From positions 1 through 64,000 of the forward strand of contig JAKQEQ010000159.1 of the NCBI GenBank assembly GCA_029556545.1: 64,000 bases of DNA, given 5' to 3'. Source of the DNA: Candidatus Hydrogenedentota bacterium (GTDB lineage: Bacteria > Hydrogenedentota > Hydrogenedentia > Hydrogenedentales > JAGMZX01). A program made the position numbers and the translations under genes. How positions within the stretch are numbered: the first letter of the stretch is position 1; every line of letters begins with the position of its first letter. The notes beneath the pieces were generated by a model. The model was not told the origin of the DNA. It ran no database searches and was given only the letters and a program-made list of their open reading frames with translations. This document shows positions 6,321 through 44,850 of this stretch, piece by piece.

Positions 6321-9300
6321 TCAGCGATACAGCGCCGCGTTCACCACCGTCTGCATATCCAGCGCATTGACGACTCCGTCCCGGTTCGCATCCGCGTTGA
6401 GCTGCGTCTTCGACTGCGACAGAATCGCGTTGACCACGAGTTGCAGATCGGTCGCATCGACGACGCCGTCGCCGTTCACGTCCGGGTTGGGCACCTTCGA
6501 TGCGTTCGTCATGTAGGTGAACGCTTGCTTCAGCACGCCCGACCCCGACGGCGTCTTGACCAGGATGTCCACCGTCCCGGCCACACGCAGGGGGGAAATC
6601 ACCTCGATCTCGCCGTCCCCGCGCGAGAAGACCTGATCCGTCTTTACGCCGCCGAAAGTCACCAGCAGCGGGGCACTCAGGCGCGCGCCCTTGATCAGGA
6701 CGCGATCGCCGCCCGTGATATCGCCGAAATTCGGCGTCACCGCCACGATCTCCGGCACGGCGAGGGCGTACACGGTGGGCGAGAACGTCTCTCGGCCCGT
6801 CACGTAAGACGCGGATATCGGCAATATGGAGAACGACCAGTATTCGCCGCCGCCCACCAACGGCGCGGGCACGCTCGTGCGGTTGGTCAGCCCCGGAACC
6901 AGGGCGCTGTTGCGATACCAGTAGAGCTGCGTCGGCCCTTCCGGGTCGCCTTGGGGATGCGAGTAGCTGTACGACGCAAACAACGGGGTGCCAGCCGGGA
7001 TATCCCGGTTCCGTGTCGGGTCCTCAAGCGGGATACCTGTCGAAAGGCGGAGATTCGTCGCCACTGGCTCGACGAACACGTCGCCCACGGAAATGAGGAC
7101 GTCCTGAAACGCGGTTTGCGCACCCGCGACGGCGGTAATCCGCACCGTATAACGCCCCGCATCGGTCAAGGTCGTCTGCCAGTCGAATCGCGCCGTACCG
7201 TCGCCGTTGTCCACGAAGGGAACCGGCGTTTCGAGCGCCCACGCAGCCGCGAACTGCGGCGTCGGCGCGCCCGCCGGACCGGTCGCCCGGGCCGTGAAGG
7301 CCACGCGGGCGCCCGCCTCGACCTCTTGCGTGCCAATGGGCTCCAAACGAAGCCGCGCAGCGGTCAGCGGCGCGTTGGACAGGTCGGAAAGGGCGACCGT
7401 GCCGGCCACGTTGTCAAACAGGTCCGCCGGGTCCACCGGTACGCCCTGACCATTCGAGAGACCAACCACCGCGTTTTCGACGAGCACTTGAAGATAGGTG
7501 AACCGAATCTGACCGTTGTCGAACAGCTCTACCTGCACGGTGTTGGGGTCGGGCGCGGGGAACGCACGCAACACGCGCTCCGGCACCTGTTCGAAGGTTA
7601 TGACCAGGCGATCATCGAGGCGGCGGCCCCACACGCTGCCGCCGCTGCGCGTGTTGAGATCGGCGAAAAGGAACGAAATGCGCGGCACCGAGAAGTGCGC
7701 CGCAAGGGATGGGAAGTTGTCAAAGCTGCCCGATGCAATCGGCGCAAATGCGATGTTCCCGTTCTCATACAAGTAGATAATGGGATAATACTCGCCGAAA
7801 AAGAAGATCGGCTGGCTGAAGCCGTAATAGTAAACGTAACCGTCTTCCAGAAACGTCAGGCTGTGCCCGGCGCCTTGGCTGTCTGAGCGGGGCACCGGCA
7901 GGCTGCGCACGTCTCGAACGCGGGTCACCTCGTAGCGCTCGTACCCGGTGCGCGCGCCGGTCGCGATCTCGGAGACGGGACCGCCGACTGGCGTGAACAG
8001 GAGCTGCGTGTTCGACAGGTCAATCGGATGCGACGCGTCGAAGGCTTCCGTCAAGTAGTTCAACGGCGGGGCGCCCGCGACGGCGTTCGCGAACGCCAGC
8101 GTGACGGTGCCGTCCCGGTGGTCCTGGGCCAGCGTGTAGAAATACTCGATGCCCTCGATCACGTCCAAATCGAGATGCTTGTTCTCGATGCCAGGATCAA
8201 TGACCGTGCCTTCGCTGCTCTGCGTGGTGTAGCCGGCTGTGCTGCGAACGAGGAACGTGTTCACTACCTCATCCGGGTTCGGCACTTCCCAATACAGCGA
8301 AATCGCCGCTGCGCCGTCGAAGGTCCGCGTCGCGGTGGCCTGAAACGCGGCGAATTCCCCGGGCGGCACAATCTCGACCGCGAGGCTCGCGGTCAACACG
8401 TTCAGGCGTTCGTCGAAGCTGAGGTTCAGGTTCGTGGCGCCCTGCATCAACGCGAAATAGAGATCTTGGTAATCGGCGGCCATGGGCAGCGTCATCTGGC
8501 ATTCCCAGAAGAGGTCCGCGACCGTATCGATCCCGAAGCCTTCGACTTTCCGGCCGTTAAACTCGTCGCCGTCCGTCAGCAGGTAGCACAACTTGTTGCC
8601 GATGCCGCTGTTGATGTGTACGCCGCCGTTGTCGAAAAAGCTATCGGGCGGTACTACCAAAGGACTTCCCAAACGGTCGGGGTCCCCGAACACCGTCGGG
8701 TCCTTCATGCTGCGAATGCCGGGGACCGGCGCGCCGGGCATGATCAATTCGAGCATGTCCGCCGGGAGGTCCTCGCTTACCAGCCAGCGAACCTCATCCG
8801 AGTCGTTGCCCCGTCCATTGGTAAGGTCCACAAACTCGCCCCAGATGTCCGAAAAGGACTCGTTGATCGCGCCCGAAAACCCACGATAGATTAGCCGCGA
8901 CGTATATGCCGTCACGCCGTGCGTGAACTCGTGCGCCGCGATGTCGTCAACTGCCCAGTCCGTACCGAAAAAGAGGCTTGGAGTAACGGCGCCGGGCAAC
9001 AAGAGGGAACCGGCCGGAACAAAAAATGCGTTCATTTCCGGCAGACGCACATAGGCGAAAATCGGCATGAACGGAAAACCGCTCGGAGGCGGCGCTTGCC
9101 CGTTGTCAAAGTTGTCCCAACCGTGGTGCGTCAGGAAGAAGTCATAAACGTCGCCGAGATAATCATAGGCGTCATCCACGTCGGGGATGCCGGTCGGCCC
9201 CTGCGCCTCGACACGGGCGGGCGTCGGCGGGACCGACAAGGAATTGTTAAGGTCCGTGATAATGCGGCGTTTACCCTCGTGAATCAGAGAAAAATGCAGG

Positions 9301-10037
9301 GCCTCCTGGCCCGACTGCGCGTCGATGAGCACCGCCTCCATGACCGGCGGCATTTTGGAGCCCGCCGCCTCCATCCACCACACGAGGCGTGTCGCTCCGG
9401 CGAGCCCCAGCACCTCCGGTTGATACACCATGAGTTCGGGCCCTTGGGTTATCCGAATATCCTCAGACGAGAGGTGATCCGATCGTCCCGCCACCGCCGA
9501 CTTCGCCTTCGCGGCAGCCGCCGTCGCGTCGACACGCGGCAATAACGAAACCGCGCCTTCGTCCAGCCCGCGCAGGTCCCGCGCAACATCGCTCGCGACG
9601 CTCAGCACGTCGCCCGCCCCCCCGACTTGCACCACCATCTCCGCCCCGAATACGCGCAGACCCCGATACGTCTGGTCCATGCGAACGACGGCACGGTCGC
9701 CCAGCGCCATGGTCCGACTGCTACGCAGGCGCGTGCGATCGCTTACGAGGCCGAAGGCCTTGCGATGGGTGTCAAGGAATGACTGCGCCGACGCTTCCGG
9801 CGTGGCGCTCTTCGTCGCCGTGTCCACCGCGAAGTAACCGCCGGGCGGCGCGCCGACGTAGCGAATAAACCCCTCGCCCGTGCGATGCAATAACGGGCGA
9901 TCGGTGGCGCCGGCGGCGCGCAAGGCGCCCATCACAGCGTCCAGATCCTTCGCGTCCGCCTCGAGAGACCCCGCATGCACCGTGGCGCAGACCACCAAAC
10001 CCACTAGCGCCAGGACGGCCAGGATGTCACTCCGCAT
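6321..10037 (-). CDS. Exported M4 (thermolysin-family) metalloprotease with TIG and dockerin domains
   Basis: Predicted secreted zinc endopeptidase, 1238 residues. The start is the ATG at 10037, eight bases after GGAAGGAG; it gives the signal peptide MRSDILAVLALVGLVVCATV. Next come an FTP/PepSY-like propeptide (roughly 30-250) and the M4 catalytic domain. That domain has HEFTHGVTAYTS near 367 (HExxH), NESFSDIWGE near 392 (third zinc ligand) and DNGGVHINSGIGNK near 474 (catalytic His). A long beta-rich region follows, with a TIG/IPT-like domain near 1095-1175. The end (about 1180-1238) is a type I dockerin pair with calcium loops DVNGDGVVDATD and DANRDGVVNALD. All catalytic residues are present. 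No cohesin is visible in the window. Confidence 0.92.
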   Translation of the reverse strand: MRSDILAVLALVGLVVCATVHAGSLEADAKDLDAVMGALRAAGATDRPLLHRTGEGFIRYVGAPPGGYFAVDTATKSATPEASAQSFLDTHRKAFGLVSDRTRLRSSRTMALGDRAVVRMDQTYRGLRVFGAEMVVQVGGAGDVLSVASDVARDLRGLDEGAVSLLPRVDATAAAAKAKSAVAGRSDHLSSEDIRITQGPELMVYQPEVLGLAGATRLVWWMEAAGSKMPPVMEAVLIDAQSGQEALHFSLIHEGKRRIITDLNNSLSVPPTPARVEAQGPTGIPDVDDAYDYLGDVYDFFLTHHGWDNFDNGQAPPPSGFPFMPIFAYVRLPEMNAFFVPAGSLLLPGAVTPSLFFGTDWAVDDIAAHEFTHGVTAYTSRLIYRGFSGAINESFSDIWGEFVDLTNGRGNDSDEVRWLVSEDLPADMLELIMPGAPVPGIRSMKDPTVFGDPDRLGSPLVVPPDSFFDNGGVHINSGIGNKLCYLLTDGDEFNGRKVEGFGIDTVADLFWECQMTLPMAADYQDLYFALMQGATNLNLSFDERLNVLTASLAVEIVPPGEFAAFQATATRTFDGAAAISLYWEVPNPDEVVNTFLVRSTAGYTTQSSEGTVIDPGIENKHLDLDVIEGIEYFYTLAQDHRDGTVTLAFANAVAGAPPLNYLTEAFDASHPIDLSNTQLLFTPVGGPVSEIATGARTGYERYEVTRVRDVRSLPVPRSDSQGAGHSLTFLEDGYVYYYGFSQPIFFFGEYYPIIYLYENGNIAFAPIASGSFDNFPSLAAHFSVPRISFLFADLNTRSGGSVWGRRLDDRLVITFEQVPERVLRAFPAPDPNTVQVELFDNGQIRFTYLQVLVENAVVGLSNGQGVPVDPADLFDNVAGTVALSDLSNAPLTAARLRLEPIGTQEVEAGARVAFTARATGPAGAPTPQFAAAWALETPVPFVDNGDGTARFDWQTTLTDAGRYTVRITAVAGAQTAFQDVLISVGDVFVEPVATNLRLSTGIPLEDPTRNRDIPAGTPLFASYSYSHPQGDPEGPTQLYWYRNSALVPGLTNRTSVPAPLVGGGEYWSFSILPISASYVTGRETFSPTVYALAVPEIVAVTPNFGDITGGDRVLIKGARLSAPLLVTFGGVKTDQVFSRGDGEIEVISPLRVAGTVDILVKTPSGSGVLKQAFTYMTNASKVPNPDVNGDGVVDATDLQLVVNAILSQSKTQLNADANRDGVVNALDMQTVVNAALYR

Positions 10038-10375
10038 AATACGGTCTCCTTCCGAAGAACCTTGCAGCCAACGGCACACCACCCTTCCTTTGCCAATGCG
10101 CCATGCCCATGGCTTGACACAACACACCCGCCAGCCTGCCGTCATCGACGCCCGGTCGTGACGGCAGGACCGCTATCTCCTGAGCTTCATTGGCGTTATC
10201 GTTGTACACCAAGGCCGGAATACAAGTCAAGGAAAACCTTCGACGGGCATGACGCATTCTGCGAAAATAGCGAATTGTCAAACATCAGGCCCCTAAAGTG
10301 GGCGAAGCTGTATGACGATAAGTATAGATGGACGATCACGGATGCGTGCCACAGGATCGGCCAAGGATGGCCGCC
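10038..10375. other. Divergent intergenic region upstream of the M4 protease
   Basis: 338 bases between the divergently transcribed protease and the small plus-strand gene. It contains the protease promoter candidate at 10201-10230. The part nearer 10260-10320 is AT-richer, as expected of a promoter region. I could not fix a promoter for the plus-strand gene. Confidence 0.5.
10201..10230 (-). promoter_or_regulatory. Candidate promoter of the M4 protease gene
   Basis: On the minus strand: TTGACT (10230-10225), an 18-base spacer, TACAAC (10206-10201). The match is five and four of six bases. It lies about 165 bases upstream of the ATG, leaving a longish leader. Confidence 0.4.
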
Positions 10376-32615: not shown

Positions 32616-33836
32616 TCACCAGCGCACGAAGTAGCGCTGCCCCGCGCCGATAATCTCGATGGCGATGCCACTGTTCGCAACGCCGATTAGACGCGCGTTC
32701 GTGCCCGGAATCCGCTCGCCCACGAACACCTTGTGCAGGTTGATAATGGCGACCCCGTGGGGGCGATTCGCGTCCGCCTCGCGAATCACGTTGATCCGCA
32801 TGTTTTCGAGCCCCAAGCGTACCCGATCCGATCCTCTCAATTCCGGAAGGGTTTTCGGGTCCACCGGCTGAACCGGCGGCATCGCCGGAGGCGCCTGATC
32901 CACGTAATCCACCTCCCGGGGCGCCGGCGCGACGGGCGGCACGGGCATCTTGCCGGTGTTCTCAGGCGTCGACGCCGTAACGGACGGTACAGGCGCTTGC
33001 GCCACCTGAAGCGGCGGCGGTTCCGGCGTCGGCGCGGTCACGGGTATCGCCAGAGGGGGCGCTTGGGGCTCAGGCGACCGTGCAACCACCGGCGGCGCGG
33101 CTGGCGCAGGTGGCTCCGGCGCGGGCGCTTGCACAACCGCAGGCGGCGCGGCTGGCGCGGGGGACTCCGGCGCGGGCGCTTGCGCAACCGCAGGCGGCGC
33201 GGCGGGCGCAGGTGGCTCCGGCGCGGGCGCTTGCACAACCACAGGCGGCGCGGCTGGCGCGGGGGACTCCGGCACGGGCTGTTGCGCGACCACAGGCGGC
33301 GCGGCTGGCGCGGGCGCGGGCTGTTGCGCAACCACGGGCGGCGCGACTGGCACGGGGGACTCCGGCGCGGGCTGTTGCGCGACCACAGGCGGCGCGGCTG
33401 GCGCGGGCGCGGGCTCTTGGACGATCGCAGGCGGCGCGGCAGGCCCCGGTGGCGCTGGCGTGGGTTGCGCCAGGACCGTCGCGTTCCTCTTGTCCATGCC
33501 GTCCATATCGTCCATATCGTCCATCGCATCCGTCGCGCCTGCCGCAGCCTCGCGCGCCACGTGGCGCGCCTGCGCGCCCGGGACTTCCGGCGTGCTCGCC
33601 CGATTCAACACCACGAACACGATGACGGGCACAACCACCAGACACGCGGCCAAGGCCGCGCCCGCGGCGATCAGCCGCCCGCGCGTGACCTGAATGACGG
33701 CTTCCCCTGGCGTGGACGATTGGCCGAGCAGTTCCGCCTCGGCCTCTTCGGCCTCAAACGCGTCCTCTGCGGGCGCCTGGGCCGTTTGCATGCGTTCGGC
33801 TTCCACTTTCCGAAGCGCATCCAGTATCGAACTCAT
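32616..33836 (-). CDS. gspB: GspB-like type II secretion accessory protein with repeat linker
   Basis: 406 residues. The N-terminus MSSILDALRKVEAERMQ is the GspB signature, with a single membrane helix near 53-75 (GRLIAAGAALAACLVVVPVI). A Pro/Ala-rich periplasmic linker follows, made of 17- or 14-residue repeats. The T2SSB-type C-terminal domain (about 335-406) contains VAIINLHKVFVGERIPGTNA and ends GAGQRYFVRW. The linker also carries one 9-mer array (MDDMDDMDGMD) and one palindromic element (NTGKMPVPP). It is probably the partner of GspA, encoded just upstream. The start ATG at 33836 fits the family. Confidence 0.85.
   Translation of the reverse strand: MSSILDALRKVEAERMQTAQAPAEDAFEAEEAEAELLGQSSTPGEAVIQVTRGRLIAAGAALAACLVVVPVIVFVVLNRASTPEVPGAQARHVAREAAAGATDAMDDMDDMDGMDKRNATVLAQPTPAPPGPAAPPAIVQEPAPAPAAPPVVAQQPAPESPVPVAPPVVAQQPAPAPAAPPVVAQQPVPESPAPAAPPVVVQAPAPEPPAPAAPPAVAQAPAPESPAPAAPPAVVQAPAPEPPAPAAPPVVARSPEPQAPPLAIPVTAPTPEPPPLQVAQAPVPSVTASTPENTGKMPVPPVAPAPREVDYVDQAPPAMPPVQPVDPKTLPELRGSDRVRLGLENMRINVIREADANRPHGVAIINLHKVFVGERIPGTNARLIGVANSGIAIEIIGAGQRYFVRW
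32940..32958. repeat. Palindromic element copy inside gspB
   Basis: cacgggc-atctt-gccggtg: seven-base arms with one mismatch, in frame within gspB and read as TGKMPVP. It has the same arms-plus-spacer design as the intergenic copy at 53701-53719. Confidence 0.6.
33085..33430. repeat. 51/42-base tandem repeats in gspB
   Basis: About seven units of 51 bases (17 residues, e.g. APAPESPAPAAPPAVAQ) or 42 bases (14 residues, with the ESP/EPP part deleted). All units are multiples of three, so copy number can vary without a frameshift. Confidence 0.85.
33492..33527. repeat. 9-mer tandem array inside gspB
   Basis: gtccatgcc, gtccatatc, gtccatatc, gtccatcgc. Read on the minus strand as part of gspB it encodes an Asp-Asp-Met run. 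Same class as the arrays at 31568, 48562, 54218 and 56645. Confidence 0.85.
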
Positions 33837-33935
33837 TCGCCGCTCTCCGTTTCCGCGCACGCCGGCCAACAGCGACCAGCGCGCCACGCTATTCAAACAT
33901 GCCGCCGCCCCGCCGTCAAGACGGCCGGGACCCGC

Positions 33936-35957
33936 CTATTCCGCCGCCCCTTCATGGGGCGTCAAAGGCGCATTCGCCGGTACCGGCTGCGTCGCCGGCT
34001 TTTCGATGTCCTCCAACGGAAGCGTCGGCGGTTCGGCGGGCTCCGACAAAACCTCCATCACAACCGCGGGCGGGCCTTCTTGCGTGGGCGCGTGCGCCCC
34101 GGGCAACTCTGACTGATCCGACTGATCCGACCGATCCGACAAGTCCGGTGTCTCGGCGCTCGGCGCGGGGTCTGCCGTCGCGGCATCCTCGGCCGGTGTC
34201 GGCGGTGTCTCGGGCTGCCGCACGTTCGGTTCCGGCGCGGGCACATCGAGCGCGCGCAAGGCGGGCGTGGGGGTTTCGGGGAGCCAACTCGTGAGCGCCA
34301 TCCGCACCTGCTTGCCCGCGAGCCCGTCAATCAACAGACCGCTTTCTGCCTGGAGTCGGCTGACCGCCATGGCCGTCTCCGCGTCATACACATTGGACAT
34401 GTTCTCCGCGCGCAGGCGGCCGGTCCGCCGCAATGCCTCTTTCAACCGCGCGACGGTCTCGCCCGAACTATTGGGAAGCAGGACGCGCGCGCCGGGGGTC
34501 GGGTCCCGCCACAACACGACCGCCTCGCCCGCATAATACGCCTGGAACTCCTCCCGCGTGGCCGTGACCGTTTCCTCGCCTGCGGCGGTCAACCGCAAAC
34601 GATCCTCTTCGACACCGGTCAGCGCCAGCCAGCAATCCTTCGTTCCCATGCGCATCTTCACGAATGTCGGCAGATTCACAACCAGTAACTGATCCAGCGC
34701 GGGCCGAAGCACCTCGAACGCCAGGCCGTTGCGAACGGCGAAAGCCGCGAAGGCCGGTATGGTGTCATCTTCCGGCCGCGCCGCAACCGGCTCGACATTC
34801 CATGCATCGAGCAGCGCCGCCGATGCCGCCTCGATCGCCGGTCCCGGCTCGATCGCGAGAAGCGCCGTGATAAAGTCGCTCCGCTCGGGCTCGGGCAGCT
34901 TGGATGCCGCGGGGTTCGGCTCGGAAACCGTGGCGGCATCCGCCGGATCGAGGGCGATCGGACGCGGAACCGGCGACGCCGCGGGAACGGGGCGTGCGCT
35001 CTGTGTCGCCATTTCCTCGAGCAGGTTCTCGAGGGGCCGCACCAGGCCGTAGAACGCCAGCAGCACGATGACGCACGCGGTGACAAGCAACGCCGGGCTG
35101 GGCAGGAGCCGCCCGATCGCCTGCCGGAAGGGAGTACGCCGTGCCCGCACGCGCTCCCCCCGGATTTCCCGCGCCGCCAGGCGCACAATCGGGGCCGTGA
35201 TCGTGCGGACCTCCTTGGTGTAGCCCACCAGCAGCGCGCGATCGCACACCGCGTTAATCACACGAGGCACCCCACCCGAAAAACGGTAGATCGCCCGCAC
35301 CGCCTTGCGATCGAATTGCACCTTGCGCCGCCCCCCCGCCACGTGCAGCCGGTACGCGATGTATTGCAGCGTCTCCGTCTCCGTGAGCGGCTTCAGATGA
35401 TACCGCGCCGTGATCCGCTGGTTGAGCTGCCGCAGTTCCCTCAGCGCGAGCACTTCGGCCAGTTCCGGCTGCCCGATGAGAATGATCTGGAGCAACTTGT
35501 CCTTCTCTGTCTCGAGATTCGACAGCAGGCGAATCTGTTCGAGCACCGGCGGGGCAAGGTTCTGCGCCTCATCGATGACCAGCACGCAATTACGGCCCCG
35601 CGCCGCCGCATCGAGCAGGTACTTGTTCAGGGAATCCACCAGTTCGAGGGCGTTCTCCGGGCACGCATCAATGCCGAATTCCTCGTTGATCTTTTTCAGC
35701 AGCTCGATGCTGCTCAACGCCGGATTGAAAATAAACGCGACATCCGTCTCCGGGTCAAGCTGGTTCAACAGATTCCGGCAAATCGTCGTCTTCCCCGTCC
35801 CGATTTCGCCCGTCAGCATCACGAACCCGCTGTGGTTCTTGATCCCGTACAGGAGGTGCGCGAACGCTTCCTTATGCTTGTCGCTCAGGTAAAGGAACTT
35901 CGGGTCCGGCGTCAGATTGAACGGCTTTTCTCGAAGGCCATAGAACACTTCGTACAT
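33936..35957 (-). CDS. gspA: GspA/ExeA-like AAA+ ATPase with peptidoglycan-binding-like domain
   Basis: ATPase thought to help place the type II secretin through the cell wall, 673 residues. The start at 35957 gives MYEVFYGLREKPFNLTPDPK, the ExeA signature. Walker A GEIGTGKTT lies near 49 and Walker B CVLVIDEAQN near 127; a single membrane helix lies near 290-310 (ALLVTACVIVLLAFYGLV). A periplasmic peptidoglycan-binding-like domain lies near 500-556 (VYDAETAMAVSRLQAESGLL). The C-terminal tail is Pro/Ala-rich and includes a 9-mer array read as DLSDRSDQSDQSE. gspB follows 99 bases downstream. The rest of the secretion machine is not in the window. Confidence 0.9.
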   Translation of the reverse strand: MYEVFYGLREKPFNLTPDPKFLYLSDKHKEAFAHLLYGIKNHSGFVMLTGEIGTGKTTICRNLLNQLDPETDVAFIFNPALSSIELLKKINEEFGIDACPENALELVDSLNKYLLDAAARGRNCVLVIDEAQNLAPPVLEQIRLLSNLETEKDKLLQIILIGQPELAEVLALRELRQLNQRITARYHLKPLTETETLQYIAYRLHVAGGRRKVQFDRKAVRAIYRFSGGVPRVINAVCDRALLVGYTKEVRTITAPIVRLAAREIRGERVRARRTPFRQAIGRLLPSPALLVTACVIVLLAFYGLVRPLENLLEEMATQSARPVPAASPVPRPIALDPADAATVSEPNPAASKLPEPERSDFITALLAIEPGPAIEAASAALLDAWNVEPVAARPEDDTIPAFAAFAVRNGLAFEVLRPALDQLLVVNLPTFVKMRMGTKDCWLALTGVEEDRLRLTAAGEETVTATREEFQAYYAGEAVVLWRDPTPGARVLLPNSSGETVARLKEALRRTGRLRAENMSNVYDAETAMAVSRLQAESGLLIDGLAGKQVRMALTSWLPETPTPALRALDVPAPEPNVRQPETPPTPAEDAATADPAPSAETPDLSDRSDQSDQSELPGAHAPTQEGPPAVVMEVLSEPAEPPTLPLEDIEKPATQPVPANAPLTPHEGAAE
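34111..34146. repeat. 9-mer tandem array inside gspA
   Basis: gactgatcc, gactgatcc, gaccgatcc, gacaagtcc. In frame in gspA, giving a Ser-Asp-rich run. Related to the array at 14991-15035. Confidence 0.85.
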
Positions 35958-36398
35958 GGAAAACCTCGCGACCTTCTCGCTCGCGGAGAGAACCGCCACC
36001 CTGGAAAAATCGGCTTAACGGGACCCATCCGAGACTGTCTTCGAATGCTCCCGTTTCCGTTTTCCCCAGGAACCGTGGCGCTGTGTAACCGCCTTTCCGC
36101 TACGCCGACGTAGCCTAACACGGAAAGACCGTGGAATCAATGACTTCCTTCAACGCGTTTTCCAAGACAATCGGGGAATTGACAGAATTCGGATTTTGAG
36201 GTACGCTATAGTCAGACGTGAACGCGGGGGAAGGTGGAGAGGCATAACGCCTTTTCACTTTGGGGTACGCAGAAGCGGCTGTTGCCGTCGCTTCTTCTCG
36301 CGACGTGCTCATATACGCGAGTTCGGGTGTGTAACGAAGGCAGAAAGATGACCGTGACGGGGGCGATCCACTCGGGGGACCGCTCAGGAGGTAGAACT
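35958..36398. other. Divergent intergenic region between gspA and a Gly-Glu repeat protein
   Basis: 441 bases with no supported gene. A candidate promoter for the plus-strand gene starts at 36179. A plus-strand frame upstream of the chosen ATG (from 36234) lacks codon bias and a signal peptide, so I treat it as leader. Confidence 0.5.
36179..36207 (+). promoter_or_regulatory. Weak candidate promoter of the first Gly-Glu protein
   Basis: Perfect TTGACA (36179-36184), a 17-base spacer, then TACGCT (36202-36207). A better hexamer, TATAGT, begins at 36207 but would need a 22-base spacer. So the -35 is convincing and the -10 is not. Confidence 0.3.
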
Positions 36399-39300
36399 AT
36401 GTCTTATCACAAAGTATTTCAGGCGTACTGTGTCTTCTGGACCGTTTGCTGCGCGGCATTCGTGCTTGCCGGCACGCCGACGTTCGCCAACGGCGTGTCG
36501 CACGGAGTAAACATTACGGTAAAATCTGGTGCCGTAGGACTCCCCGCCCCGCCGGTCCCGCGCGACGTCAACGCGAACGCAGACCCCTGGAACGATATTT
36601 ACAAGGCCGGCGGCACGGCCCCGGCGCCAGGTTCGACCAGCCTGCTGCGGCTGGACAAGGCGCTCCTCGGCCTGCTCCCCCACGACGACATCGACGCCAT
36701 TTCCTACGCCGACGCCAATGTGGCGCTGCCGCCGCCAGTGCTAATTGCCGACGGGCCCGCCTGGGTTGAGGGAATTCCCGGCGGCGGCTGGGAAGACTGG
36801 CAAGGCAACCTCATCTTCTGGCACTTCTCGGTGGATGAGTTTGCGCTCGGCGTGTTCAACCCCTTTACCATTCCTCCCAAGTCCGCGGTGCGCAACGAAG
36901 TCATGGCGGGCACCTCGTGGAACCTGCTGCCCGCGAATCCGAATGAGGCGCACGGCGACTACTTCATCGCCAGCACCGCCTTCCCCGGCGGCAAAGGCAA
37001 CAATTTCCTGGGCGCGGATGAAGAACAGTTGACGCTTGATATCTCGCCGCTCGCCGCGCCCCACGCGCAGGACGACCTGAACGGTCTGGACCTGGAGGCG
37101 GACCTGATCCTGCATCCAGACATCCCGCTACAGCCGGGAGAGTTGTTCTTCTCTCTCGCGCCGGGCTCGCCGTCCCTCGCGGGCATCGACCCCTTCTTCC
37201 TGCGGCCCTTCTCCGAGGCGGACATTCTCACCCCGAACGGCGGGGGGGGATTTCGCATCGCGCAGGTGGTGGACGGCCTGATCGTGAACGGCAACGCGGA
37301 ACGGCTCGGCATCCCCTTGGGCAACAACCTGGACGCCCTCTTCGTGGACGGCAACGGCATTCCCTGCTTCTCCGTGCAAATGCTGATCCCCAGCATGATG
37401 CCGGGTACTCCGAATGCGAATCCCGGCGACATCCTGGTGCCGGACGGCATGTTGTACCCACTCGGCATGCCGGTTCCGGACGGGGTAGCCGACGAGTTGA
37501 TTCCCGCGCGCGACCTCGGCCTGCTCGACCTCGAGAAAATTGGAACGCCGGAAGACCCACCCGACCCGCAAGACGACAACCTGAACGCCCTCGACGCCGA
37601 ATTGGAGCCGTACACGTCGCCTCCTCCTCCCGTGGAAGGCAAGGACGATGCTCTTGTGCCTGGTGGCGAAGGCGAAGGTGAAGGTGAAGGTGAGGGCGAG
37701 GGCGAAGGCGAAGGTGAGGGCGAGGGCGAGGGTGAGGGTGAAGGTGAAGGCGAAGGTGAAGGCGAGGGTGAGGAACCGAATCCCTTCGGCATCAATATCT
37801 CCGTGCGCGTGAACAGCGCCGGATTGCCGCCGCCGCCGTGGCCCCGGGACGTCGCGCTCAATCCGGATCCTTGGAACGACGTCTATAAGGCCGGCGCAGG
37901 CCGCAACCTCCTGCGGCTACCGCAGCATCTGTTAGGACTCCTCCCCGGCGACGATATCAATGCCATCTCCTATCGCGATACCGTCGTGTTTCTGCCGCCG
38001 CCCGCGCCCGCGGACCCGCCTTTCTGGGCGGACTTGCCGGGCCATGGGTGGTGGGACGCCGCGGGATTGCCTATATACTGGCATTTCTCCGTGGACGCGT
38101 GGGCGATTGGCGTCGGATTCAAACCGCTCGCGATGCCGCCGCGCCCGCCGTCTGATGTCAATAACGAAGTCCTGCTTGGCAGACAATGGAATGTGGTGCT
38201 CGCGAATCCTAACGAGGCGCATGGGGACTACTTCCTCACCAGCATTGTGTTTCCTGTTGGAATGCCAGGGGGCATTGGGTCAAACCTCCTCGTCGGCGAC
38301 GAAGAAGCGCTCGGACTCGCCATTCAGAACAACGTCGCGCCCCCGCCAGCCCACGACAACGACGACCTGAATGCACTCGACTTGCACGCGCCGTTGATCG
38401 ATAGCCGACCCCATCCGCTGCCGCCCGGCTGCCTTTACTTCTCATTGGCTAAGGGATCCCCTTCGCTCGGCGGATTCGACCCCACTTTCGGGCGGCCTGT
38501 CACCGCCGCGGACATTTTTACGCCTGACGGCGCGGGCGGATTCCGTATCGCGCTGATGGCCGATGGACTGCTTGTAAACGGAAACGCTGAAACGTTGGGG
38601 GTTCCCCTCGATAATGATCTCGATGCGCTGTTTGTCGACGGACAAGGCATCCCCTGCTTTTCGGTATTAAGCCCCATTGTGAGCGCCCTGCATCAAGCCG
38701 CGAATCCCGGCGATATCCTCGTTCCCGACGGCATGCTCCTGCCGGCGGGAGGACCCGTACCAGACGGTGTCGCCGACGAAATGATCCCCGCTCGAGACCT
38801 CGGGCTCCTCGACCTCGAGAAGCTTCCTAATCCCGAGGACCCCGACCCCGACCCGCAAGACGACAATCTGAACGCCCTGGATGCGGAACTGGCCAGTGTA
38901 CCGCCGGATAACCCTCCGGGTGAGGGCCAGGACCAGGCCGGTAGCGAAGGAGAAGGAGAGGGCGAAGGAGAAGGTGAAGGTGAGGGTGAAGGCGAGGGAG
39001 AGGGCGAAGGTGAAGGAGAAGGGGAGGGAGAGGGCGAAGGAGAAGGTGAAGGGGAGGGTGAAGGCGAAGGAGAAGGTGAAGGCGAAGGGGAGGGAGAGGG
39101 CGAAGGCGAAGGAGAAGGAGAAGGCGAAGGTGAAGGGGAAGGGGAAGGAGAAGGCGAGGGCGAAGGCGAAGGGGAAGGTGAAGGGGAGGGAGAGGGCGAA
39201 GGGGAAGGAGAAGGAGAAGGCGAAGGTGAAGGTGAAGGGGAAGGGGAAGGCGAAGGCGAAGGAGAAGGCGAAGGTGAAGGGGAAGGTGAAGGCGAGGGAG

Positions 39301-39668
39301 AGGGCGAAGGTGAGGGCGAAGGCGAAGGGGAGGGCGAGGGGGACCCTTGCTTCAGCGAATACCACACGGCGGACCAGTCGCAGAATAATCTCATCGAGTT
39401 GACCGAGTTGTTGCGGGTCATTCAGTTCTATAACAGTGGCGGATTCCACTGCGCCGATGACCCCTCGAGCACGGAAGACGGCTACGTCCCCGGGCCGGGT
39501 GCGAACCACGCTTGTTGCCCCCACGACAGCGACTACGTGCCCTCCGGCCCCGATTGGGAGGTCAAACTGACGGAGTTGTTGCGCGTAATCCAGTTCTACA
39601 ACTCGGGCGGCTACTACTACTGCCCGGACGAAGCGACGGAGGACGGTTTTTGCCCAGGGCAGCCTTGA
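36399..39668 (+). CDS. Exported duplicated-domain protein with Gly-Glu arrays and dockerin-like C-terminus
   Basis: 1089 residues; I do not recognise the main domain. The ATG at 36399 follows an ideal AGGAGGT site and gives a signal peptide (MSYHKVFQAYCVFWTVCCAA ... TFA). Two homologous units follow: unit A (about 33-420) and unit B (about 460-845). They share NADPWNDIYKAGG/NPDPWNDVYKAGA, LLGLLPxDDIxAISY, an xFWHFSVD-type stretch, NPNEAHGDYF and VPDGVADExIPARDLGLLDL. Unit A is joined to unit B by 18 Gly-Glu dipeptides. A second array of 66 dipeptides (about 850-981) leads to the C-terminal domain: four or more Cys and two copies of LTELLRVIQFYNSGG. The end behaves like a degenerate dockerin (inference). 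Confidence 0.8.
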   Translation: MSYHKVFQAYCVFWTVCCAAFVLAGTPTFANGVSHGVNITVKSGAVGLPAPPVPRDVNANADPWNDIYKAGGTAPAPGSTSLLRLDKALLGLLPHDDIDAISYADANVALPPPVLIADGPAWVEGIPGGGWEDWQGNLIFWHFSVDEFALGVFNPFTIPPKSAVRNEVMAGTSWNLLPANPNEAHGDYFIASTAFPGGKGNNFLGADEEQLTLDISPLAAPHAQDDLNGLDLEADLILHPDIPLQPGELFFSLAPGSPSLAGIDPFFLRPFSEADILTPNGGGGFRIAQVVDGLIVNGNAERLGIPLGNNLDALFVDGNGIPCFSVQMLIPSMMPGTPNANPGDILVPDGMLYPLGMPVPDGVADELIPARDLGLLDLEKIGTPEDPPDPQDDNLNALDAELEPYTSPPPPVEGKDDALVPGGEGEGEGEGEGEGEGEGEGEGEGEGEGEGEGEGEGEEPNPFGINISVRVNSAGLPPPPWPRDVALNPDPWNDVYKAGAGRNLLRLPQHLLGLLPGDDINAISYRDTVVFLPPPAPADPPFWADLPGHGWWDAAGLPIYWHFSVDAWAIGVGFKPLAMPPRPPSDVNNEVLLGRQWNVVLANPNEAHGDYFLTSIVFPVGMPGGIGSNLLVGDEEALGLAIQNNVAPPPAHDNDDLNALDLHAPLIDSRPHPLPPGCLYFSLAKGSPSLGGFDPTFGRPVTAADIFTPDGAGGFRIALMADGLLVNGNAETLGVPLDNDLDALFVDGQGIPCFSVLSPIVSALHQAANPGDILVPDGMLLPAGGPVPDGVADEMIPARDLGLLDLEKLPNPEDPDPDPQDDNLNALDAELASVPPDNPPGEGQDQAGSEGEGEGEGEGEGEGEGEGEGEGEGEGEGEGEGEGEGEGEGEGEGEGEGEGEGEGEGEGEGEGEGEGEGEGEGEGEGEGEGEGEGEGEGEGEGEGEGEGEGEGEGEGEGEGEGEGEGEGEGEGEGEGEGEGEGDPCFSEYHTADQSQNNLIELTELLRVIQFYNSGGFHCADDPSSTEDGYVPGPGANHACCPHDSDYVPSGPDWEVKLTELLRVIQFYNSGGYYYCPDEATEDGFCPGQP
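37665..37772 (+). repeat. Gly-Glu coding hexamer array, 18 copies
   Basis: GGN-GAR hexamers encoding Gly-Glu, linking the two homologous units of the 36399-39668 protein. Synonymous codons vary from copy to copy. Confidence 0.95.
38946..39341 (+). repeat. Gly-Glu coding hexamer array, about 66 copies
   Basis: 396 bases of GGN-GAR hexamers directly before the dockerin-like C-terminus. All four Gly codons and both Glu codons are used. Higher-order repeats of mixed length are visible, so part of the array has probably expanded in blocks. Confidence 0.95.
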
Positions 39669-39765
39669 ACGCCGTGCGCGGAAATGCCGAACGCATTCGA
39701 GACGTGGAATAGGAGAGTGAGTCCATTTCGCGGCTCATTGATATGGGACTAAACGCCGAAAAAGG

Positions 39766-39785
39766 AGATAAAACCGATTTTATCT
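39766..39785. promoter_or_regulatory. AT-rich perfect palindrome, possible operator or hairpin
   Basis: agataaaa-ccga-ttttatct: a perfect 8-bp inverted repeat of low GC in a GC-rich background, about 100 bases after the first Gly-Glu gene and about 100 bases before the promoter candidate of the second. Its role could be operator or mRNA end; it lacks a T-tract. Confidence 0.35.
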
Positions 39786-39861
39786 TATGGATTTGCGGGA
39801 AGATCGGCAAGTGGAGTGTTTTCGTAAGTCGTTGCGCCGCAAGGATCTTTGCAAGAAAGGG

Positions 39862-39891
39862 CTTGTGTGTTCCGCCTAGACGGTGCTATAA
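39862..39891 (+). promoter_or_regulatory. Candidate promoter of the second Gly-Glu protein
   Basis: Perfect -10 TATAAT (39886-39891) with the extended TGC in front, an 18-base spacer and a poor -35 TTGTGT (39862-39867). It starts about 60 bases before the ATG. Confidence 0.5.
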
Positions 39892-39951
39892 TGGGTTCGG
39901 GTTGGAGTTGAGGTACGAAACCGAAGCGAAAGGAATGAGGGGTTCTTTGTC

Positions 39952-42900
39952 ATGTCACACAACACATTCACCACTAGTCTCCGTGTACTTGTAGCCATCC
40001 TCTGCGCAGTCGCGGTCACGTCCGCATGGGCGCAAGGCGCCGCGGACCCGTCCCGGCTGTTGCCGCCCATGCCGCCCGCCGCGGCGGGAATGGCGCCGCA
40101 GGCCAAGGCGCCTGCGGTCGCGTCGCTGGGACCCAGCGACTGCCAGGTCGCGATCAACTTCGACGAACTGACCGCGCCGTGTGGTTTTGCAAGTACGACG
40201 CGGCTCACGGGCGAGTATTTCTACCTTGGGCTCTTGTTCGAAGGACCGGGCGGCAACGACGGCGGCGCCGTGCTCGATGAGTGCGGGGTCTTTGGCGTAA
40301 CGGGCCACTCGTCGCCCAATTTCCTCGCGTTCAATACCGGTTCGGCTCTGAGCGACGGCGGCGTGCCGCAGGGCCCGGAAACCATCACCTTCAGCAACCC
40401 GATCGTGTCCTTCGAGGCAGCGTTCGGCACCGGAACCGCCGGCAACCTGACGCTCACCGCGTATGATGAAGGGGGTGGAGTGGTCGATCAGACGACGGGC
40501 GCCATCGGACCCGCGTTGGCGCGCTTTGCCGTCTTCGGACGCGGCATCAAGACGGTCGAGTTCAACACCACCGCCGCCGCCTGGGTCTGCGACGACCTCT
40601 GTATCGTCGAGGACGGGGGCAGCGGCGTGCTGGTCCTGCTCGAAACCTGCGGCGGCAGTGCCGACTTCATCACGCCCGCCCTGGCGAACCTCAGCCATAC
40701 CGACGTCACCGTGGTCAACGATCCGGGCGATTATGAGTTCGCCATTCGCACGGGGCAGTGGGACCTCATTATCCTGGAAGAGTATGGTAATTATATTCCC
40801 GAAGCCGCGCTCGACGCGTTGGTTGATTACCACAACGGCGGCGGGCGGATTGTTTTCTCCTACTGGGGGCTGGATGCGATTACCGCCCATCCGATCATGG
40901 ACGTTCTCGGCGTCTCGTATGTGAGTTCCTATAATACTCCAGAATCCGTCTATGCCTGGAACCCGACCCCGCTCTTCGACACGCCGAACAGCGTGCCTGA
41001 TCTAACGACGTTCATCAATCCGTGCACCCAGGACGGCCACCGGGTCGAGCCGACCTCCGCTGCGGCGATGGCGGGATACACCGCGACGGCGCAAGCGAAT
41101 GAGGCAGCCCTGACCGTCAGCGGCAACGGAAGGGCCATTCTGAACGCCTTCATGCCGGGCACGGTCGACCAGGACGCGGACACCGACGGCAAGAACGACA
41201 TGATCGCGTTGTACGAGAACGAGATTTACCACCACATCGGCCTTGGCGACGCCGCCCTCGCGGCCGCGCCGCCCGCCATCGAGTTCCGTCTCCCGGTCGA
41301 CGGCGCGGACGCCGAACCGGTGACGCTCGAAAACCTGAGTCCCGCGCCCATCAACTGGACCAGCGGCGTCGTCCGCGTGCTGATCGCCGCGGCAAGCGAT
41401 CCGCCGACGTTCTTCCTGGACGAGTTCATGGCGGAGACCGGCATGGCCGTGGTCGATTACGTCAACACGAGTGGGGCCACGCCGACTGTTTCGGAAATGC
41501 TCAACTATGACGTGGTCATTGTGGCAAGCAACTTCGCGCCTGCCGATCCGGCAGCTCTCGGCAACAATCTGGCCGACTACATCGACATGGGCGGCAAAGT
41601 GATCAACGCCCTCGCCACCTTCGCGGGAGCACCATGGCAGTTGGAAGGCCGCTTTGTCGCGGACGGCTACGGCGCCTTCCTCAATGACGCCCCGACGGAG
41701 TTCTTCCTGCACACCTTGGGCACTTTTGATCCCGGCCACCCGATTATGGACGGCGTCAGCAGTCTGACTGATAGTCTCGTGGCGACCGCCGTGCCCGCGC
41801 CCGGCGCCGTGGTCGTGGCCGAATGGGACAACGGCACGCCGTTGGTGGCTACTCAAGGCGACACGGTAGTCGGCTTGAACGCTTTCATTCTCGGCACGGG
41901 TTACACGGGCGACCTCGCGCACATGGTCCGCAACGCCGTGCTCTGGCTCGCCAAGCGCGGCGAGTGGCTGAGCGTCAATCCGCCGTCGGGCACCCTGCTG
42001 CCCGGGGAATCCGTCGTGCTCGATGTCGCGGCCGACGCCACGGGCTTGCCTCTGGGCTTCTATGAGCCCCTTACACTGGGCCTGTGGGGGCCGAAGGGCG
42101 GGCGCGCGGAAGTGGACGTGTCCCTCGTGGTCTTTGACCCGTGCCCGCCGGACGCGAGCTTCTCCCAGCCTGTGGCCATGCCGCACGAGGGCGGCGGAAG
42201 CGCATACACCAGCAGCGATACCTCCAGTTACAAAGTCTATGAAAATGTTTCCGGATTGACCGGGAATATCGTCGCGCTGCAATGGTGGGGTCTCGACCTC
42301 GAGTGGCTTCCCGGCTTCGGCGAATGCGACCGGCCCGCGCCGGACCAGTTCCTCGTGGGCTTCTATACGGACAATGCCGGCCTGCCCGACGCGCTGATCG
42401 ACGAGGTCACCGTGACCGCCGTGGTCGAGGATACCGGCCTCGTGCTGTTCGGAGTCTACGAGCAGAAGCGGTACTCCGCGACGCTCCCGAGTCCGGTGGC
42501 CATGCCCGAGGGCTGGATTTCGATCCAGGGCATCGACGCGGACGCGTGCTGGTTCCTCTGGAGCACCTCACCGGTCGGCGACGGTAACGGTGTACAGGAT
42601 AGCGGCAGCCTCGTCAACCTCGGCGTTGACCTCGCGCTGTGCGTGACCACCCAAGTCACGGACTTCTGCCCGCCCGAGTCCATCTACAGCCAGCGTCCCG
42701 TCACCACGACGCAGCCGCTCTTTGGCCCCTTCAGCGACGACGCTTCGGGCTTCCAGGTCTATGACGATTTCAGCGGTGTCCCGGGGCCGATCGGCGGGTT
42801 GGTATGGTGGGGCTTCGAGTATTCAGGCGTGCCTTGCACGCGTCCGGTCACCGATTTCCTCATCGGGTTCTATGAAGACGACGGCGGCGGCCAGCCCGCC

Positions 42901-44025
42901 ACGGGCACGCCGATTCACGAGGAGGTAGTGACGGCGGTCAGGGAGGACACGGGCCTTCTGTATCTCGGGACCCTCCCGCTGCTCCGGTACACCGCCCCGC
43001 TCTCCGCAGGGGTGAACATGGCGTCCGGCTGGGTCAGCATCGCGGGCACGAACGGCGACGCATCCTGCGTCTTCGCCTCGGTCGACTCCGACCAAGGCAA
43101 CCTGCACGCCCTGCATTGGGATGGTGTTACGTTCGGCCCCCTCGGAAAGGACATGGGTCTCTGCTTCTTGCCTTACATCGTCCCGACATGCACACCCATC
43201 GCGGATGCGATCTGCGACTCGGTGGTGTACGGGACAAACATCGGCCAACCTTCGGAGATCGATAGCTACTCCTGCTCCGGATGGTCGGAGACCGGTCCCG
43301 AAGCGGTATACAGCTTCGCCCCGCTGGCGGATACGGATGTGACAATGATCTTGTCCGACATGACAATGGATCTCGATATCTTCATCCTGGAGAATGAATG
43401 CCGACCGGACCAGTGCATCACGTATGGTAACAACGACGTGACGTTCTCGGCGCTGGGAGGAAGCACGTATTATGTTTCCGTGGACGGCTATGCCGGGGCG
43501 ACCAGTGACTTCACACTGACCATCACCTGCACTGGCGGTGAAGGCGAGGGTGAAGGTGAGGGCGAGGGTGAGGGCGAGGGCGAAGGCGAGGGTGAAGGTG
43601 AAGGCGAAGGTGAGGGCGAGGGCGAGGGCGAAGGCGAGGGTGAAGGTGAAGGCGAAGGTGAAGGTGAAGGCGAGGGTGAAGGCGAAGGCGAAGGTGAAGG
43701 TGATCCTTGCTTCAGCGAATGGCATACGGCGGACCAGGACCACAGTAGCCTGATCGAGTTGACGGAACTATTGCGTGTCATCCAGTTCTACAACTCCGGC
43801 GGGTTCCACTGTGCGGATGACCCGGGATCAACGGAAGACGGTTACGTGCCGGGCGTCGGCGCGAACACCACGTGCTGCCCGCACGCGAGCGACTACGCGC
43901 CCTCCGGGCCGGACTGGCAGATTGCGCTGACCGAGCTGCTGCGGGTCATCCAGTTCTACAACTTCCCCGGCTATCACTACTGTCCGCTTGACGGGACGGA
44001 GGACGGCTTCTGCCCCGGACTTTGA
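39952..44025 (+). CDS. Large exported multidomain protein with Gly-Glu array and dockerin-like C-terminus
   Basis: 1357 residues. The signal peptide MSHNTFTTSLRVLVAILCAV ends near AWA (26). Two Rossmann-like segments resembling class I glutamine-amidotransferase/ThuA folds lie near 225-340 (QWDLIILEEYGNY) and 475-600 (LNYDVVIVASNF). A beta-sandwich pair follows at about 733-900 and 906-1070; both have a VYxxxSG start, an LQWWG/LVWWG core and an xFLxGFYxD stretch. A PPC-like domain lies near 1085-1192 (MDLDIFILENECRP, STYYVSVDGYAG). Then come 27 Gly-Glu dipeptides (1196-1250) and the same C-terminal domain as the previous gene (LIELTELLRVIQFYNSGGF). No catalytic site was identified. Likely cell-surface. 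Confidence 0.8.
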   Translation: MSHNTFTTSLRVLVAILCAVAVTSAWAQGAADPSRLLPPMPPAAAGMAPQAKAPAVASLGPSDCQVAINFDELTAPCGFASTTRLTGEYFYLGLLFEGPGGNDGGAVLDECGVFGVTGHSSPNFLAFNTGSALSDGGVPQGPETITFSNPIVSFEAAFGTGTAGNLTLTAYDEGGGVVDQTTGAIGPALARFAVFGRGIKTVEFNTTAAAWVCDDLCIVEDGGSGVLVLLETCGGSADFITPALANLSHTDVTVVNDPGDYEFAIRTGQWDLIILEEYGNYIPEAALDALVDYHNGGGRIVFSYWGLDAITAHPIMDVLGVSYVSSYNTPESVYAWNPTPLFDTPNSVPDLTTFINPCTQDGHRVEPTSAAAMAGYTATAQANEAALTVSGNGRAILNAFMPGTVDQDADTDGKNDMIALYENEIYHHIGLGDAALAAAPPAIEFRLPVDGADAEPVTLENLSPAPINWTSGVVRVLIAAASDPPTFFLDEFMAETGMAVVDYVNTSGATPTVSEMLNYDVVIVASNFAPADPAALGNNLADYIDMGGKVINALATFAGAPWQLEGRFVADGYGAFLNDAPTEFFLHTLGTFDPGHPIMDGVSSLTDSLVATAVPAPGAVVVAEWDNGTPLVATQGDTVVGLNAFILGTGYTGDLAHMVRNAVLWLAKRGEWLSVNPPSGTLLPGESVVLDVAADATGLPLGFYEPLTLGLWGPKGGRAEVDVSLVVFDPCPPDASFSQPVAMPHEGGGSAYTSSDTSSYKVYENVSGLTGNIVALQWWGLDLEWLPGFGECDRPAPDQFLVGFYTDNAGLPDALIDEVTVTAVVEDTGLVLFGVYEQKRYSATLPSPVAMPEGWISIQGIDADACWFLWSTSPVGDGNGVQDSGSLVNLGVDLALCVTTQVTDFCPPESIYSQRPVTTTQPLFGPFSDDASGFQVYDDFSGVPGPIGGLVWWGFEYSGVPCTRPVTDFLIGFYEDDGGGQPATGTPIHEEVVTAVREDTGLLYLGTLPLLRYTAPLSAGVNMASGWVSIAGTNGDASCVFASVDSDQGNLHALHWDGVTFGPLGKDMGLCFLPYIVPTCTPIADAICDSVVYGTNIGQPSEIDSYSCSGWSETGPEAVYSFAPLADTDVTMILSDMTMDLDIFILENECRPDQCITYGNNDVTFSALGGSTYYVSVDGYAGATSDFTLTITCTGGEGEGEGEGEGEGEGEGEGEGEGEGEGEGEGEGEGEGEGEGEGEGEGEGEGEGEGDPCFSEWHTADQDHSSLIELTELLRVIQFYNSGGFHCADDPGSTEDGYVPGVGANTTCCPHASDYAPSGPDWQIALTELLRVIQFYNFPGYHYCPLDGTEDGFCPGL
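43537..43701 (+). repeat. Gly-Glu coding hexamer array, about 27 copies
   Basis: 165 bases of GGN-GAR hexamers between the PPC-like domain and the dockerin-like C-terminus. Here GGC and GGT dominate; GGA and GGG, common in the 38946 array, are nearly absent. The arrays therefore did not arise by recent copying of one another. Confidence 0.95.
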
Positions 44026-44061
44026 GCCGGCGGCGCCGACTTGATTGAAGGAGCATCGTGC

Positions 44062-44096
44062 GCGGGCGGTTGGACCATCGGGTTCCAGCCGCCCGC
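44062..44096 (+). terminator. Strong hairpin downstream of the second Gly-Glu gene
   Basis: 13-bp stem with one G-T wobble (gcgggcggttgga / tccagccgcccgc) and a 9-base loop, 37 bases after the stop, followed by acttctt. Probably a terminator, though the T-tract is poor. Confidence 0.65.
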
Positions 44097-44250
44097 ACTT
44101 CTTCCGCCAGAGTCAAATGTTGCCGTGTCTCATCGGAATTTGGAATACTGGCGGCGTAGAATCGTCTTGTTATCGAGTGTCGGAATGTGCGCCGCTGCCG
44201 CGGGGTTTCCTTGATTGAGTACGGTCGGCGCGAAAAAGAAGGAAGATACC

Positions 44251-44850
44251 ATGAGAAAACACTCGCGGATCCTGCTGATAATTGCGGTGGTCGGTCTGGC
44301 GTTGGTCCATATCGGCTGTGAGACCTACGGCCAATCCGCGGGCCTTGGCGCGCTGGTCGGCGGCGGCGCGGGCGCGATTATCGGGCACCAGTCCGGTCAC
44401 GCGCTCGAGGGCGCGGCCATCGGTGCGGCGCTCGGCGCCGCCACCGGGCTCATCGTCCACGACGTGAAGGCCAGAAGGGCCAGAACCGCCGAGGAAACGG
44501 CCCAGCAATACAATTATCAGCCATCGCAGGGACTGAAACTCCAAATCGAACGCTCGGAGGTGCTGCCCAATTTCGTCGCGCGCGGCAACGAGGTCGAGAG
44601 CCAGGTGCAGTACGCCCTGCTCGGCAGCGGCGGCGGCGTCGAGGTCACTGAGAAGCGCACCCTGCTGCGTGGCGGACAAGTCGTGTCGGAGTTATCGTCC
44701 GAATCGTTCGTGAGATCGGACGGCACCTGGGTCAGCAGCCAGCGTTTCCGGCTTCCCAACGACTTGCAGCCTGGAGAATATGCGGTCATGCAGCGCGTCA
44801 GCACCGCGCAGCACGTCGTTTCAGGCACCGCTCCCTTCACCGTGCAATAA
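44251..44850 (+). CDS. Glycine-zipper lipoprotein
   Basis: 199 residues. The start at 44251 follows aagaaggaag and gives MRKHSRILLIIAVVGLALVHIGC, i.e. a signal peptide with a lipobox Cys near residue 23. A glycine-zipper stretch follows near 30-70 (GALVGGGAGAIIGHQ, GAAIGAALGAATGLI), similar to Rcp/SlyB-type 17-kDa surface-antigen proteins. The C-terminal 100 residues are a beta-rich domain of unknown function. Likely anchored in the outer membrane, role unknown. Convergent with the ABC permease gene. Confidence 0.75.
   Translation: MRKHSRILLIIAVVGLALVHIGCETYGQSAGLGALVGGGAGAIIGHQSGHALEGAAIGAALGAATGLIVHDVKARRARTAEETAQQYNYQPSQGLKLQIERSEVLPNFVARGNEVESQVQYALLGSGGGVEVTEKRTLLRGGQVVSELSSESFVRSDGTWVSSQRFRLPNDLQPGEYAVMQRVSTAQHVVSGTAPFTVQ

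Follow-up and report, generated by a model that had tools for sequence, protein, structure and literature searches.

Within the stretch analysed here (hereafter the window; 64,000 nt of contig JAKQEQ010000159.1, assembly GCA_029556545.1, Candidatus Hydrogenedentota bacterium), two neighbouring open reading frames, 36399–39668 and 39952–44025, both begin with a signal-peptide-like N-terminus and end in nearly the same domain, and the question is what this shared domain, the tag, does for the proteins that carry it. The original prediction proposed a dockerin variant or a sorting tag for cell-surface display, with an acidic Gly-Glu (GE) arm as a spacer. We examined the tag in the window, in the source genome (G000; 6.1 Mb, 195 contigs, 96% complete) and in 68 Hydrogenedentota genomes.

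The two window proteins and the domain they share

The last 106 residues of the two proteins are 81% identical (E = 2e-66), and their N-terminal parts have no BLASTP similarity to each other (best E = 1.6), which agrees with the description of unrelated exported proteins with near-identical ends. The features of the two genes are as follows.

36399–39668, + strand: secreted protein 1, of 1089 aa; behind the signal peptide lie two repeats of about 430 aa of unknown fold with a GE linker between them, then a long GE linker and the C-terminal tag
37665–37772, + strand: Gly-Glu linker inside protein 1, joining its two repeats
38940–39341, + strand: Gly-Glu linker of 134 aa preceding tag 1
39342–39665, + strand: tag 1, dockerin-like duplicated domain
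39372–39407, + strand: tag 1 repeat 1, EF-hand-type loop DQSQNNLIELTE (EF-hand profile match in 45 of 54 family members)
39408–39434, + strand: tag 1 repeat 1, helix LLRVIQFYN
39531–39575, + strand: tag 1 repeat 2, altered loop DYVPSGPDWEVKLTE
39576–39602, + strand: tag 1 repeat 2, helix LLRVIQFYN
39952–44025, + strand: secreted protein 2, of 1357 aa; the signal peptide is followed by a large extracellular part (BACON match below threshold), a GE linker and the tag at the C-terminus
43537–43701, + strand: Gly-Glu linker of 55 aa preceding tag 2
43702–44022, + strand: tag 2 (AlphaFold2 model, mean pLDDT 88.6)
43732–43767, + strand: tag 2 repeat 1, EF-hand-type loop DQDHSSLIELTE
43891–43935, + strand: tag 2 repeat 2, altered loop DYAPSGPDWQIALTE

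Each tag contains two LLRVIQFYN helices and six cysteines at matching positions behind a long linker, as had been noted, and the first loop of both tags is in exact EF-hand register at positions 1, 3, 5 and 12, in line with the calcium-type residues seen there originally. Three features had escaped the original prediction: the duplication extends to the TEDGY-PG tail, protein 1 contains a further GE linker in its interior, and some copies of the tag elsewhere in the genome are not C-terminal. Pfam and NCBIfam gave chiefly low-complexity matches of the window proteins to the GE runs (TrAA12, serine-rich protein). Many tagged proteins match the Pfam model PF22807 (TrAA12) through their Gly-Glu linkers; this model probably includes a linker of this type and so produces false annotations. 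Just upstream of protein 1 lies a gene for an ExeA/GspA-like AAA ATPase with a peptidoglycan-binding domain (33936–35999, − strand), adjoined by a gene for a Pro-rich GspB-like protein without a Pfam hit (32616–33896), a pair that hints at type II secretion.

The consensus of 97 full-length copies is H-x-A-D-Q-[ND]-x-[DN]-x-x-I-x-L-[TS]-ELLRVIQFYNSGG-x-HC-...-TEDGYxPGxG-...-C-x-PH-x-SDY-x-P-(GP)-DW-x-I-x-L-[TS]-ELLRxIQFYNSGGYHxCP-...-TEDGFCPG. In the repeat unit of about 45 residues an EF-hand-type loop is followed by the helix ELLRVIQFYN and by two paired strands with TEDGY-PG at their end. An alignment of one half of the tag with the other spans 44 columns at 61% identity (probability 99.8), and the tandem duplication is therefore complete. 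The first loop follows the strict pattern D-x-[DN]-x-[DN]-x-x-[ILVM]-x-x-x-E in 70 of the 97 copies, and in 92 if S is allowed. The second usually carries insertions (13 to 15 residues), takes the 12-residue form in rare copies and is canonical in one copy out of 97. Compared with EF-hand domains (PF13405, PF00036), repeat 1 has the canonical 12-residue calcium loop followed by a helix, whereas only the exiting helix is present and repeat 2 is lengthened by at least one inserted residue. From these patterns the tag, in its first loop at least, probably binds calcium. The net charge of the domain is about −11, and it contains no hydrophobic segment.

The loop-helix duplication expected of a dockerin is present in the AlphaFold models of two tag members (pLDDT 88.6 and 82.7), each of which contains the loop-helix-hairpin unit twice. 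Foldseek returned nothing significant for either model (E = 1.6 or worse); in a second structural alignment all entries with Z ≥ 2 were dockerins, four of four for model 1 and 14 of 14 for model 2, with weak scores (Z 2.0–2.6 and 2.1–3.4, respectively). In a Pfam scan of 54 members, EF-hand_6 matched 45 (best 3e-6) and Dockerin_1, at E ≤ 1, matched nine (best 9e-5). No dockerin profile matched either window tag at E ≤ 1 or any of three members scanned singly at E ≤ 0.01, and the EF-hand match of a singly scanned member scored below the cut-off. Profile–profile comparison of the tag with the dockerin confined the similarity to one 18-column EF segment. The tag has no model in Pfam or NCBIfam; the NCBIfam scan of the 54 members gave only a spurious FolE match, and a PDB sequence search gave nothing significant. 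The helix sequence was not found in the literature searched (5.39 million papers), and the literature on Hydrogenedent* with cohesin or dockerin held passing mentions only.

Set beside the type I dockerin (PF00404, cellulosomal and non-cellulosomal), the tag has the same duplicated EF-hand-type loop-helix, lies mostly at the C-terminus of secreted proteins, also occurs fused to cohesin and takes the same position on orthologous M14 peptidases. It differs in its length (95–105 residues versus about 60), in the Glu at loop position 12, where the dockerin has Asp, in a second loop altered to DY-x-P-(GP)-DW, in an extra strand pair, usually 4–5 cysteines and the TEDGY-PG motif, and in near-invariant ELLRVIQFYN helices, and it falls below the Pfam cut-off.

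Copies, payloads and distribution

A search of the source genome with tag 1 gave 111 matches, all but one with E < 1e-7, so that a chance resemblance is excluded; they correspond to about 105 distinct domains. The family is thus larger than first described. Its members are not always C-terminal: among 107 distinct ORFs, 93 have a stop codon within 15 residues of the domain, nine carry it directly after the signal peptide and five internally (14 of 107 not C-terminal). In the N-terminal copies a GE linker often comes next, in mirror image of the usual layout. Many contigs of the source genome stop a few hundred bases or less from a copy, apparently because the GE repeat breaks the assembly. In three paralogous beta-helix-like proteins (L086, L101, L117) a long insertion containing NPLEVxRSPLVEAYMxKHxIxLPEIPE separates the two repeats.

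A strict home-made signal-peptide rule was passed by 50 of the 83 tagged ORFs with an intact N-terminus, compared with 13% of control ORFs; the remaining tagged ORFs are mostly signal-peptide-like (judged by eye only) or fragments. The payloads that Pfam recognised in 20 tagged proteins are typical of extracellular proteins: M14, S15 and C1 peptidases, LRR, kelch, InlB B-repeats, beta-helix, CHRD, PKD and GDSL. The acidic spacer on exported proteins of a lineage-expanded family, with Gly-Glu runs in front of the domain, is as predicted.

The tag is present in 41 of the 68 Hydrogenedentota genomes. Scored tags per genome number at least 76 in the source genus, 38 to 77 in family f2, 18 to 24 in f6 and f9 and mostly 1 to 6 in f3 and f8; the tag is almost absent from the large family f11. 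The canonical dockerin follows the opposite trend, with 0 to 7 copies in tag-rich genomes but 41, 39, 21 and 15 in some f11 genomes; tag-rich and dockerin-rich genomes do not overlap, in a set too small for this to be significant alone. The best 80 matching loci are all titled Hydrogenedentota/Hydrogenedentes or uncultured bacterium, the named ones being Candidatus Hydrogenedentota, and no relatives were present on the plasmids or viral contigs searched. A tree built from the tag sequences has poor resolution. Divergent tag-like domains lie mid-protein in secreted proteins of f5 and f11 (L261, L262, L263), which have GIPEPG near the start and end in a hydrophobic segment followed by Arg.

Exchange with dockerins and fusion to cohesins

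We compared orthologous secreted M14 carboxypeptidases from the source genome and 15 others (51–63% identical to the query). Behind conserved catalytic and regulatory domains, the orthologs of 10 genomes end in a canonical two-repeat dockerin. The tag is the terminal domain in the source genome, in G002 and in two G001 copies, and G021 has a divergent tag there; the protein of the source genome and one G001 copy have extra domains in front of the tag. One G043 copy ends in a GE linker and a hydrophobic segment, and one G034 copy in thrombospondin-type repeats and a hydrophobic segment. In the tree, the four proteins with a typical tag group together with support (99/96), and therefore one exchange suffices for them. 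The window itself encodes a peptidase with a canonical dockerin.

6321–10145, − strand: secreted thermolysin-like M4 metallopeptidase (FTP, TIG, canonical C-terminal type I dockerin at 6339–6482)

The 210-residue domain of this protein (7440–8063) is common to trypsin-like proteases of f3 and f8 that end in the tag (E = 9e-22 and 5e-29). Dockerin-matching ORFs of approximately the size of the M4 peptidase recur across the phylum.

The tag is also joined to cohesin. A protein of 240–400 residues with a cohesin followed by the tag occurs in 25 genomes of f1, f2, f3, f6 and f8 and is the most widely conserved tag carrier; in f3, with only 1–6 tags per genome, it is among them in 13 genomes. The cohesin is recognised by Pfam in the member from the source genome (5.5e-7) and by our own cohesin profile in further members, and the reverse order, tag then cohesin, is present in G003 and the source genome. 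A conserved locus encodes a dockerin protein, a protein with a dockerin and thrombospondin repeats, and several cohesins, mostly with a hydrophobic C-terminal segment. One cohesin of this locus bears the tag in f1, f2, f6 and f8, at the position that a hydrophobic C-terminal segment occupies in its sisters. The locus in the source genome, with cohesins at 42157–42549, at 43998–44363 and one between these two, is the following.

Contig C33, 33000–50000 (L294): three cohesins, of which one bears the tag and the other two have a hydrophobic segment at their end, together with two dockerin proteins

Related loci are L295–L299 and L301–L303. Beside the cohesin–tag and protease–tag genes of f3 and f8 no conserved neighbours were found.

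The cohesin–tag protein is built like an adaptor scaffoldin, in which a cohesin is combined with a dockerin (PMC4959524): it is a small secreted protein with one cohesin and then a docking module, if the tag docks as we infer. The docking module here is the tag, and the payloads scanned show no link to cellulose degradation.

The original prediction had suggested a search for co-occurring cohesin-like partners. Cohesins are encoded in 59 of the 68 genomes irrespective of the tag, and their count does not rise with it (5–8 cohesins against at least 76 tags). Since tag-bearing and tag-free genomes alike have cohesins, co-occurrence cannot name the receptor. We also considered the argument that, in cohesin–tag genomes without a dockerin at E ≤ 1e-5, the cohesins must bind the tag; it was dropped, as weaker dockerin matches are present there.

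The tag as a probable attachment module, and the alternatives

Overall, the data support the dockerin reading in part, and most strongly through comparative genomics: the duplicated loop-helix, the dockerin-only structural neighbours at Z ≥ 2, the exchange on orthologs and the cohesin fusion speak for it, while the weak fold scores, the profile similarity limited to one EF segment, the score below the Pfam cut-off and the loop pattern speak against it. Because the tag lies below the profile cut-off and departs from the calcium-loop pattern of dockerins, we do not file it as a dockerin; we propose that it functions in the manner of one. The reading that we favour, and consider reasonably probable, is that of a divergent, lineage-specific attachment module equivalent to the dockerin in role.

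In this mechanism two loop-helix units, the first at least probably holding Ca2+, would make a two-fold symmetric face from the two near-identical ELLRVIQFYN helices. The flexible acidic Gly-Glu arm would hold the tag away from secreted payloads that are unrelated to one another (proteases, LRR, kelch, InlB-like repeats and others), and after export the tag would dock non-covalently onto a common cell-surface receptor. The best candidates for the receptor would be the cohesins on proteins with a hydrophobic C-terminal segment, together with the small cohesin–tag protein, which would serve as an adaptor. Duplicated dockerin motifs are known to give a symmetric face, to which cohesin can be bound in two orientations (PMC12484212), and natural adaptor scaffoldins hold docked proteins and also attach to another scaffoldin (PMC4959524). 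A cohesin may be the receptor of the tag, and the tagged proteins would lie at the surface. The cohesin of the cohesin–tag protein could instead bind canonical dockerins, and the tag may have a dedicated receptor other than cohesin, or bind a polysaccharide. More tentatively, and with the odds somewhat against it, the canonical dockerin may have been replaced in one branch of the Hydrogenedentota by a different EF-hand plug that uses the existing surface cohesins, giving a non-cellulosomal, general-purpose display with more than 100 cargo proteins per genome and a conserved cohesin–tag adaptor.

The main alternative, which we regard as rather doubtful, is that the tag anchors its protein in the envelope through a receptor of its own, which may be a protein or a polysaccharide. 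The cohesin–tag protein would then present its cohesin to proteins with a canonical dockerin, and the tag itself would not bind cohesin. This would account for the position of the tag where sister cohesins of the conserved locus have a hydrophobic C-terminal segment, for M14 orthologs that end in a dockerin, the tag or another tail with a hydrophobic segment, and for cohesin numbers that do not track tag numbers. However, cohesin binding is the simpler account of the duplicated dockerin-like EF-hand fold and of the direct exchange with dockerin on orthologs, and no receptor co-occurring with such an anchor was identified.

The sorting half of the original prediction fared worse. C-terminal sorting domains (T9SS Por_Secre_tail, PEP-CTERM) are likewise common to the ends of many unrelated exported proteins, and both the 93 of 107 copies within 15 residues of the stop codon and the very high conservation of the tag would suit a secretion or sorting signal that is read, and perhaps removed, by an export system of this type. 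The nine copies directly behind the signal peptide and the five internal ones largely refute this by position; moreover, the domain lacks a hydrophobic segment, and in a genome that is 96% complete we detected no Por_Secre_tail and a single exosortase match below the cut-off, so a sorting signal is very improbable. Internal copies had been named in advance as fatal to the whole proposal. They count against sorting only; the dockerin half survives them because dockerins tolerate N-terminal and internal positions. We give equally little credence to a calcium-dependent carbohydrate- or mineral-binding or self-association domain unrelated to dockerin function: the net charge of about −11 and the better fit of EF-hand than of dockerin profiles would agree with it, but it leaves the dockerin exchange on orthologs and the recurrent cohesin fusion unexplained.

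If the tag is indeed an attachment module that works like a dockerin, plug-and-socket display would be a general way to dress the cell surface in an uncultured phylum, beyond cellulose degradation, and a different plug could take its place on the same enzymes. More than 100 proteins per genome would be marked as probably surface-attached, with a testable receptor named, and the tag and its receptor might provide an orthogonal docking pair for protein engineering.
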